From Desulfuromonadaceae bacterium (GTDB lineage: Bacteria > Desulfobacterota > Desulfuromonadia > Geobacterales > Pseudopelobacteraceae): DNA of 64,000 bases. The stretch spans positions 1 to 64,000 of the forward strand of contig JAQTRC010000004.1 of assembly GCA_028712665.1 (NCBI GenBank). The letters are read 5' to 3'. Made by a program: the position numbers and the translations under genes. The notes beneath the pieces were generated by a model. It did no database searches. It had not been told where the DNA came from and saw only the letters and a program-made list of their open reading frames with translations. This document shows positions 19,392-21,745 of the stretch, piece after piece; position 1 is the first letter of the stretch; every line of letters begins with the position of its first letter.

Positions 19392-19580
19392 TCATTCTCG
19401 AGTAACGTAAAATTTCAAGGCTTCACGCATGATGTCAGAGACACTCTTCCGGTTGTACTCCATAAGAGTCTCCAGATGCCTTCGACTCTCCTCGCTGATT
19501 CTTATGGAGATTACATTGTACCTTGGCTTCCGGCCCGATTTGCCCATCGGTTTGCGCTTATCATTAGTCACGGATTCCAT
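19392..19580 (-). CDS. Ribbon-helix-helix (CopG-like) small DNA-binding protein
   Basis: 62 aa: RYNVISIRISEESRRHLETLMEYNRKSVSDIMREALKFYVTRE. Confidence 0.75.
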   Translation of the reverse strand: MESVTNDKRKPMGKSGRKPRYNVISIRISEESRRHLETLMEYNRKSVSDIMREALKFYVTRE

Positions 19581-19581
19581 G

Positions 19582-19677
19582 CTATTCGTTCTGTTTTTTA
19601 TAGTAGCTTATATACTGAAAACCGAACACGATAAGGCCCACAGCCACCAGTGCCAGAAATCCATATACCAATATCAT
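19582..19677 (-). CDS. 31-aa single-pass transmembrane microprotein
   Basis: Manual translation MILVYGFLALVAVGLIVFGFQYISYYKKQNE*; stop TAG is 1 nt from the RHH start; below the ORF-track cutoff. Confidence 0.6.
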   Translation of the reverse strand: MILVYGFLALVAVGLIVFGFQYISYYKKQNE

Positions 19678-19730
19678 TGCATCAACCCCGCTTTTATCAT
19701 TTCGATTACGGCCACGTCAGTAACCGGATA

Positions 19731-19823
19731 TCATGGCTGCCCGTTTCGGTAAGTAAAATAACAGTAGAACTGGTAAGCAGAGACGGCCCCGGCGAACAGT
19801 GACACAATTCCAAAAACAATCAT
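19731..19823 (-). CDS. 30-aa single-pass transmembrane microprotein
   Basis: Manual translation MIVFGIVSLFAGAVSAYQFYCYFTYRNGQP*; upstream AAAGGGAG Shine-Dalgarno; below the ORF-track cutoff. Confidence 0.6.
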   Translation of the reverse strand: MIVFGIVSLFAGAVSAYQFYCYFTYRNGQP

Positions 19824-19847
19824 TTTAAGGCTCCCTTTCGTCCAAAA

Positions 19848-20063
19848 TTATTGCACTGCCACATCAATATTTTCTCTCTTTTTACGGTATATATTGCAGG
19901 ATTTGTATTCACCCGCGCAGAAGGCAAGCATTTTGGGGATTTTCATGCTTGAAATATTCACACAGTAACACTCAGGGAATTGTCTCCCCATAAATGTGCA
20001 CCAACTGGAGTAACCGGGATCGGTAAATTCCGAGTCGATCGAGACATCTGCTCTTCTGCTCAT
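19848..20063 (-). CDS. 71-aa Cys-rich small protein
   Basis: MSRRADVSIDSEFTDPGYSSWCTFMGRQFPECYCVNISSMKIPKMLAFCAGEYKSCNIYRKKRENIDVAVQ; AGAGGA SD; sigma54 promoter upstream; start is internal to the ORF-track entry 19848..20171. Confidence 0.65.
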   Translation of the reverse strand: MSRRADVSIDSEFTDPGYSSWCTFMGRQFPECYCVNISSMKIPKMLAFCAGEYKSCNIYRKKRENIDVAVQ

Positions 20064-20110
20064 AATTTTCCTCTGATACGCATCTTTAAAAAACAGCTGC
20101 TCAATTGCTG

Positions 20111-20126
20111 AGCAAAAGGGATGCCA
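20111..20126 (-). promoter_or_regulatory. sigma54 (RpoN) -24/-12 promoter
   Basis: On the minus strand TGGCATC-CCTT-TTGCT matches TGGCACG-N4-TTGCW with correct GG/GC spacing; predicted start ~20100, 37 nt before the ATG. Confidence 0.75.
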
Positions 20127-20177
20127 TGCCAGTTTCATATTGAAATAACTGCATATTTTCAAATTTACCAAATTGTG

Positions 20178-20224
20178 GGGTATGCAAAATGCGCAGCAGG
20201 AGAGTGCAAAGGGTAGGCAAAATG
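20178..20224. promoter_or_regulatory. Candidate enhancer (UAS): two 14-bp direct repeats for an NtrC-type activator
   Basis: GGGTATGCAAAATG (20178-20191) and GGGTAGGCAAAATG (20211-20224), 33 bp apart, 50-100 bp upstream of the -24/-12 element. Confidence 0.55.
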
Positions 20225-20231
20225 ATCAGCT

Positions 20232-20399
20232 CTAGGAGTCTGACGGACTTAGGAAATCGTAGCGAAAATCAGGCTGGGCGAGAGCAGATTTTGTCGGTTT
20301 TGAAGGTCAATAGCCGTTCTATTGACCGATAAAGCGGCGAAATATGATCCGTTCAGACGGATTTGCAGTAGATTTCTCCTAAGTCCGACAGGCTCCTAG
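20232..20399. repeat. 168-bp MITE-like palindromic element
   Basis: Imperfect terminal inverted repeats CTAGGAGTCTGACGGACTTAGGAAATC ... GATTTCTCCTAAGTCCGACAGGCTCCTAG, internal GGTCAATAG-ccgtt-CTATTGACC hairpin; CTAG at both ends. Confidence 0.75.
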
Positions 20400-21745
20400 A
20401 TGTTGTATCTGGCAAGCATCCGCTTGAAACTGCTGTAATCGACATCCAAGAGGCGGGCGGCTTCCATTTTCTTGCCGCCGGAGGCGGCCAGAGCCTGTTG
20501 AACGGCCTGGCGTTTGATCTCTTCAAGTGTCTGCAGGGTCAAAGCTTGATCTTGGGACGCTGCCGGACGGAATTTTTCAAGTATATTGTCCAGATCTTTG
20601 CAAGTGATGGCTTCACCTGCAAAGAGAACAGCGCGTTTAATGACGCTCTTCAATTCCCGCACATTCCCTGGCCACTTATGGCGGCTAAGCAGCATGATCG
20701 CGTCCGGGGTTACGCGGGGAGGAATCCGGTCCAGCTCCAGCGAGGCCTCATTGAGAAACGCCCTCGCCAGAACCGGAATATCTTCAACTCTATCACGCAG
20801 AGGCGGTAATGTGATCACAAGGCCGCCAAGCCTGTAATAGAGGTCCTCCCGGAAATTTCCCGTTCTCGCCTCATGAAGGAGTTCGCGGTTGCTTGCTGCG
20901 ATGATGCGTATATCGGCAGCGACCGGCTTTATCCCGCCGACGGGGTAAAATCGTTTCTGTTCGACGGCATAGAGAATCTTGGCCTGGATAGCTGGCGGCG
21001 CGCAATCGACATCGTCAAGAAAAAGCGTTCCGCCGCCGGCTTCCTCGAAAAGACCTCTCTTGGCTGAAACCGCACCTGTGAAGGCCCCCTTGACATGCCC
21101 GAACAATTCACTCTCAACCAATGATTCCGGAAGAGATCCCAGATTGACTGTAATAAATGGCTGATGCCTTCGCCGGCTTAATCCATGTATCAGAGATGCA
21201 AGATGGGATTTGCCCACACCGGTTTCACCCTGAAGGATTAGTGAATAATCAGTTGTCGAGATGCGCTTCGCCTGCTCGATGACATCCAGCATTGCAGGGC
21301 TGTTCCCGAGCAGCAGTTCCAGCGACGCCTGTTCGCCCTGCCTCGCCTTGTCCAGTTCGGCTCTCTGAAGAATAGGGGTAGCAGCCCGTGAGATCGTCTC
21401 GACTAGTTTTCTGCAATCAATCGGCTTGCGGACATAAGCTGATACTCCGAGTTCGATAGCTTTGAGAAGATAATCCGTCTCCGTGAAGGCGGTGCAGAGG
21501 ATTACCGGCGTATCCGGAGCTATTTTACGGATCCGCATTGTCATGTCGAGGCCGTCCATCAGTGGCATCATTATGTCGCTCACGACGACATCGGGGCGTT
21601 CCCTGGAAAAAATATCCAGAGCCTCATTGCCGTTGGCAGCTGTAAATACAGGCTCAAAGCGCATCGAAAGCACAATTGCGATCCGTTCCCTAAGTTTCGG
21701 TTCATCCTCAACATAAAGAATTTTCAACCGGATTTTGTCAGTCAT
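20396..21745 (-). CDS. NtrC-family sigma54-dependent response regulator
   Basis: REC domain (VVVSDIMMPLMDG), AAA+ with GETGVGKS and ELFGHVKGAFTGA, C-terminal Fis-type HTH. Confidence 0.96.
   Translation of the reverse strand: MTDKIRLKILYVEDEPKLRERIAIVLSMRFEPVFTAANGNEALDIFSRERPDVVVSDIMMPLMDGLDMTMRIRKIAPDTPVILCTAFTETDYLLKAIELGVSAYVRKPIDCRKLVETISRAATPILQRAELDKARQGEQASLELLLGNSPAMLDVIEQAKRISTTDYSLILQGETGVGKSHLASLIHGLSRRRHQPFITVNLGSLPESLVESELFGHVKGAFTGAVSAKRGLFEEAGGGTLFLDDVDCAPPAIQAKILYAVEQKRFYPVGGIKPVAADIRIIAASNRELLHEARTGNFREDLYYRLGGLVITLPPLRDRVEDIPVLARAFLNEASLELDRIPPRVTPDAIMLLSRHKWPGNVRELKSVIKRAVLFAGEAITCKDLDNILEKFRPAASQDQALTLQTLEEIKRQAVQQALAASGGKKMEAARLLDVDYSSFKRMLARYNI

Follow-up and report, generated by a model that had tools for sequence, protein, structure and literature searches.

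A conserved, putative single-target sigma54 circuit with a five-cysteine protein and membrane microproteins as predicted products in a Desulfuromonadaceae bacterium

Control of the bacterial exterior has been put forward as a role of sigma54 (PMC3162934). The known system closest in logic to the locus described here is the PrsK/PrsR PEP-CTERM regulatory system (Haft et al. 2006; PMC1569441). The two have in common (i) a histidine kinase and an NtrC-type regulator, (ii) a -24/-12 promoter preceded by an activator motif private to the system, and (iii) discovery by comparative genomics, together with an envelope theme. They differ in output: PrsR regulates many PEP-CTERM genes (PMC1569441), whereas here there is one promoter in the genome, with a cysteine-rich protein and microproteins as products. 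The kinase and regulator of our locus fall short of the PrsR/PrsK equivalog cut-offs (TIGR02915, 323.3 against 502.6 bits; TIGR02916, 57.4 against 300 bits), and a search of the operon products for a PEP-CTERM motif found none. A second comparison is offered by MgrB, a 47-aa membrane protein that inhibits its sensor kinase in PhoQ feedback (PMC8404706, PMC10576120). Like MgrB, the microproteins of our locus are small membrane proteins that would be made under a two-component system; unlike it, they are predicted to be sigma54-controlled, and they match no Pfam small-protein family at threshold, so that MgrB serves as a functional analogy only. Lastly, the promoter consensus of the Geobacter sulfurreducens RpoN regulon, TTGGCACGGTTTTTGCT, fits the type of element found here, and a search of the main text of that paper (PMC2725144) found nothing on an operon of this type. 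The initial annotation of the locus recognised no described system, and our search of the open-access literature likewise found no description of one.

The window (the whole stretch of DNA analysed, 64,000 nt) carries, in order on the minus strand, genes for a histidine kinase and an NtrC-type regulator, a -24/-12 promoter, a 71-aa ORF with five cysteines, two micro-ORFs, a ribbon-helix-helix (RHH) gene and the gene for a 311-aa membrane protein. The initial annotation had described a sigma54-driven mini-operon beside its own kinase–regulator pair, and we find the promoter, the 30- and 31-aa membrane ORFs and the RHH gene where it had placed them. To these we add three features absent from that annotation: a tandem pair of putative activator sites, a palindromic repeat near the end of the NtrC gene, and the gene for the 311-aa protein. 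The upstream pair is also as it had read it: a 646-aa dCache sensor histidine kinase (23678–21738, minus strand; dCache_1, HAMP, HisKA and HATPase domains in Pfam) and a 449-aa response regulator (21745–20396, minus strand; REC, AAA+ and Fis HTH domains), with PF00072, PF00158 and PF02954 all above the Pfam cut-off and GAFTGA read in the sequence. The last helix of the regulator's HTH domain, the presumed recognition helix, is YSSFKRML. An Rfam scan of 17–24 kb of the window gave no match.

The regulator was compared across 141 genomes of the order, mostly draft metagenome assemblies in which several loci are cut by contig breaks. NtrC orthologues at 65% identity or above, which define family A, occupy 23 loci in 20 of these genomes; the next relatives seen, at ~45%, form sister family B. 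Some of the locus counts given here rest on ORF patterns, which diverged copies may escape. Nearly all family-A NtrC genes have an orthologue of the kinase upstream, and 18 of the 23 loci show the order kinase–NtrC–promoter–Cys, with the Cys gene directly downstream of NtrC. At one family-A locus (G110, contig C22) the Cys and microprotein genes instead sit just upstream of the kinase–NtrC pair, while four (L140, L141, L142, L143) are without a five-Cys gene. Relatives keep the -24/-12 element and, at a minority of loci, the micro-ORFs alongside the pair, the conservation on which the initial reading depended. Judged from sequence, the kinase–regulator–small-gene arrangement is a real control circuit, conserved in related bacteria. 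Some relatives have HU/IHF-type genes within or behind the Cys operon (L040 1648–1920; L043 7905–8186).

Other genes found downstream in family A encode a glycosyltransferase (L049), a methyltransferase (L091) and a GNAT-type transferase (L142). They would suit an exopolysaccharide or surface regulon of the PrsK/PrsR type. On that view, surface genes would be the main targets of the regulator family, with the microproteins carried along incidentally. PrsR ranks among the top NCBIfam matches, and the proposed sigma54 control of the exterior (PMC3162934) points the same way. We consider this explanation improbable given that the PrsR and PrsK cut-offs are not reached, that the window operon holds no surface-type gene, and that the microprotein is conserved between operons and under purifying selection.

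The promoter element, TGGCATCCCTTTTGCT, reads at 20126–20111 (minus strand), and transcription is predicted to start ~37 nt ahead of the ATG (20063). It is the sole match in the window; 0.14 matches are expected per shuffle, and at least one was obtained in 12 of 100 shuffles, making the lone match modest evidence. Conservation makes the evidence for this predicted promoter strong, because a composite pattern of activator site, 38–68 nt and promoter matches 15 times in the 141 genomes—always at family-A or -B loci or before a Cys gene—while the reversed control matches 0 times. Of the 23 family-A loci, 17 carry the strict form TGGCAY-N5-TTGCT and most others a near-consensus form; with GG and GC at -24 and -12 and TGGCAY-N5-TTGCW conserved across orthologous loci, the element has the sequence expected of a sigma54 promoter. 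In 12 loci the promoter begins 104–125 nt past the NtrC stop. In the window this distance grows to 269 nt, owing to a ~170-nt palindromic repeat (a MITE/REP-like long inverted repeat, 20231–20400) located at the NtrC stop codon, which it apparently supplies; without the repeat, the spacing is normal. The repeat, of which the genome has two further ~89% copies (contigs C164 and C89), separates NtrC from the activator sites, whereas in relatives 7–9 nt lie between the stop and the first site.

These putative activator sites are two tandem copies of CATTTTGCNYACC upstream of the promoter, 33 nt apart: CATTTTGCCTACC at 20224–20212 and CATTTTGCATACC at 20191–20179 (both minus strand). A motif search of the 3.55-Mb genome finds exactly two occurrences of CATTTTGCNYACC, both at this locus. 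The first site is kept in relatives, and site pairs at 32–33 nt spacing are found in 13 loci, some with one base changed. The helix YSSFKRML accompanies CATTTTGCCYACC sites; proteins with YRRFKRML (L042, L058, L143) or YRKFKRML (L062) have no CATTTTGCCYACC and CATTWTGG-like sites instead. Because the motif thus changes together with the recognition helix of NtrC in relatives, CATTTTGCNYACC is very probably the regulator's own predicted binding site and the circuit would have one target. Of all the evidence that the regulator would bind the promoter downstream of its own gene, this co-variation is the strongest. In G115, a genome whose main operon is without a microprotein, a single additional tandem-site promoter lies on contig C92, where it precedes a 50-aa two-helix membrane ORF. 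A separate feature of the window is a perfect inverted repeat, TGCTCA-N5-TGAGCA (20114–20098), that overlaps the -12 element and the start region. It is a possible operator; we make no claim of an RHH operator here, since the repeat was not seen in relatives when these were inspected by eye.

The initial annotation proposed that the outputs are membrane microproteins plus a small DNA-binding protein. Both kinds of product are encoded, yet they occur at 9 and 8 of the 23 family-A loci, respectively, and so are dispensable to the arrangement; the most constant product of the circuit is the Cys protein. This 71-aa protein (20063–19848, minus strand) contains exactly five cysteines, as had been noted, and the alignment shows all five (C22, C32, C34, C49 and C56) to be invariant. 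An HMM of the protein matches in 64 of the 141 genomes of the order (E up to 1e-3) and in only 8 of 396 genomes sampled across the phylum (E up to 1e-6). The protein has no match at threshold in the Pfam, NCBIfam and PHROG libraries and none among plasmids, and its profile has none among PDB sequences. An AlphaFold2 model from eight sequences was uninformative (pLDDT 50.7) and was set aside as a basis for fold comparison.

The settings of other Cys genes are varied. The Cys domain is fused to a HisKA_3 kinase in L045; Cys genes follow bacteriohemerythrin-like genes in L046, L079, L081 and L085 (significant matches, of which one exceeds the TIGR02481 cut-off and the others fall below it) and a CheW gene in L066, and elsewhere adjoin chemoreceptor-like genes. 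Together with cytochrome neighbours, described below, these associations suggest envelope signalling of a redox or metal type. A single genome (G129, L079–L085) has nine Cys-gene matches, several directly behind hemerythrin-like genes, and in L082 a Cys gene is followed by a tatA-like and a sigma54-activator-like gene. The window's own genome has two more family-B-type Cys genes at contig ends (L075 on C41, L076 on C60), one copy lying behind a kinase–NtrC pair with TGGCACTGTCATTGCT. Matches at contig ends had raised the idea of a mobile-element origin for the Cys gene. These two contigs share their last ~169 nt and each stops within the same Cys gene, a pattern that a duplication of sister loci would fit.

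Downstream of the Cys gene, the two micro-ORFs (minus strand) read MIVFGIVSLFAGAVSAYQFYCYFTYRNGQP (30 aa, 19823–19731) and MILVYGFLALVAVGLIVFGFQYISYYKKQNE (31 aa, 19677–19582). Both encode predicted single-TM proteins, and the second is a paralogue of the first: a model built without microprotein 2 recovers it with E 3e-7. The microprotein alignment has an invariant Q18, a nearly invariant Y22 and basic C-termini. Given their length, and the weak Shine-Dalgarno site of microprotein 2 (that of microprotein 1 is GGGAG), they could be chance ORFs in the transcribed leader of the RHH and sensor genes. Such an origin is exceedingly unlikely and already largely refuted, firstly by the comparison of synonymous and non-synonymous changes that the initial annotation had proposed: between L043 and L044, 16 of 20 changes are synonymous and 4 non-synonymous (pN/pS 0.08; 0.49–0.56 for other pairs). 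Secondly, a model leaving out both window copies places them first and second among 1776 frames (E 1.2e-8 and 1.7e-7; its rows were drawn from an alignment that had included both). Thirdly, relatives in other genomes occur as tandem, coupled copies with Shine-Dalgarno sites under sigma54-like promoters. One tandem array (L231 1649–2150, reverse-complement coordinates; G032) consists of four tandem, overlapping membrane micro-ORFs of 28–49 aa belonging to this family, and one array precedes a PhnD-type sensor gene under a -24/-12-like element. Neither microprotein matches a Pfam or NCBIfam family at threshold, known Pfam small-protein families included. At the level of sequence, the coding nature of the micro-ORFs is clear: they are real, and define a new predicted QxxxY microprotein family missed by gene finders.

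The RHH gene (19580–19392, minus strand) starts 1 nt past the preceding TAG, as initially described, and overlaps the upstream membrane ORF by 14 nt in L036/L039. Its 62-aa product scores 26.4 bits against the Pfam RHH_1 cut-off of 20.5, which places it in the CopG/RHH_1 fold family, and has syntenic homologues; PDB sequences returned only weak matches to CopG regulators. It differs from described CopG/RHH_1 repressors in being encoded together with microproteins. Short hydrophobic ORFs so closely spaced with an RHH gene, whose product also has a weak RelB-like match, recall a toxin–antitoxin-like cassette in which membrane toxins and a type II antitoxin or autorepressor would be placed under signal control. 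Yet the RelB score is 18.8 against a cut-off of 50, and PADLOC gives no match; toxin–antitoxin and defence readings were rejected on these grounds. Microproteins also occur without the RHH protein (L035, L090, L209, L221, L224) and the RHH protein without a microprotein (L062), a conserved, predicted requirement for a sigma54 activator is atypical of such cassettes, and the Cys protein has no plasmid match. A cassette of this kind is thus very unlikely.

The 311-aa membrane protein (19323–18388, minus strand) starts 68 nt after the RHH gene and is probably encoded by the last gene of the operon. Its middle part looks extracytoplasmic, and its C-terminal ~90 aa form a CSWCKKIRDD...HGICPEC domain with no match in Pfam. 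Similar domains end the PhnD/PAS sensors of L039 and L228, as well as an upstream protein in L052; in L039, it is this different sensor that follows the RHH gene. The PhnD-type sensor behind the microprotein array has a C-terminal CSYC...CPEC domain of the same kind.

The main rival explanation is a respiratory or envelope output: the microproteins would serve an electron-transfer or envelope complex in the membrane, either as small subunits or in its assembly (CydX- or FixQ-like), the Cys protein would help to mature cofactors, and the circuit would tune respiration to an external acceptor. Family-B operons do have porin-like and c7-type multihaem cytochrome genes after the Cys gene, and in L229, L232, L233 and L236 the neighbours of microprotein relatives are genes for multihaem cytochromes and not for sensors. 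However, the window operon and most microprotein-bearing family-A loci have no cytochrome or oxidase gene, and the microproteins match no small-subunit family in Pfam or NCBIfam at threshold. On balance, we regard a respiratory role as rather unlikely.

The best explanation, and in our view the probable one, is a self-contained, essentially single-target sigma54 circuit with the Cys-protein and microprotein operon as its output. The dCache histidine kinase would sense an extracytoplasmic signal and phosphorylate the NtrC-type regulator, which would then bind the two tandem sites; these would lie on one face of the DNA, because 33 nt is about three helical turns. Bound regulator would activate sigma54 polymerase at the -24/-12 element ~50 nt downstream, a step with strong sequence evidence from which RpoN dependence is presumed. 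The operon would then yield a cytoplasmic five-Cys protein, a pair of paralogous microproteins that cross the membrane once and keep their C-termini in the cytoplasm, the RHH protein and, probably, the membrane sensor-like protein. The dedicated, signal-responsive circuit proposed in the initial annotation is thereby supported by the conserved gene order and -24/-12 element, the private, co-varying tandem site and the purifying selection on the micro-ORFs, and its architecture appears conserved and essentially single-target.

The roles that we favour for the products are tentative: the Cys protein may be a metal- or Fe-S-binding, redox- or metal-responsive signalling partner, the microproteins may bind to, and modulate, the membrane-spanning region of a sensor or envelope complex, and the RHH protein may limit expression. 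A more specific version, in which the QxxxY microproteins, often encoded in tandem and expressed from dedicated sigma54 circuits, act directly within the membrane on either the dCache kinase of their circuit or the sensor protein transcribed with them, with the five-Cys protein as redox partner, is possible though doubtful.

This work assigns two protein families without library models, the five-Cys proteins and the QxxxY microproteins, to a circuit that has a single promoter and a binding site predicted from sequence; each step is therefore testable by one gene deletion or by mutating 13 bases. Sister operons tie the Cys protein to porin–cytochrome genes, and the locus suggests that two-component systems of metal-reducing bacteria can have, among their main outputs, membrane proteins so small that gene finders overlook them. 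Should the microproteins indeed act directly on a sensor, the QxxxY/Cys module would be a self-adjusting sensor module beyond all described small-protein regulators.
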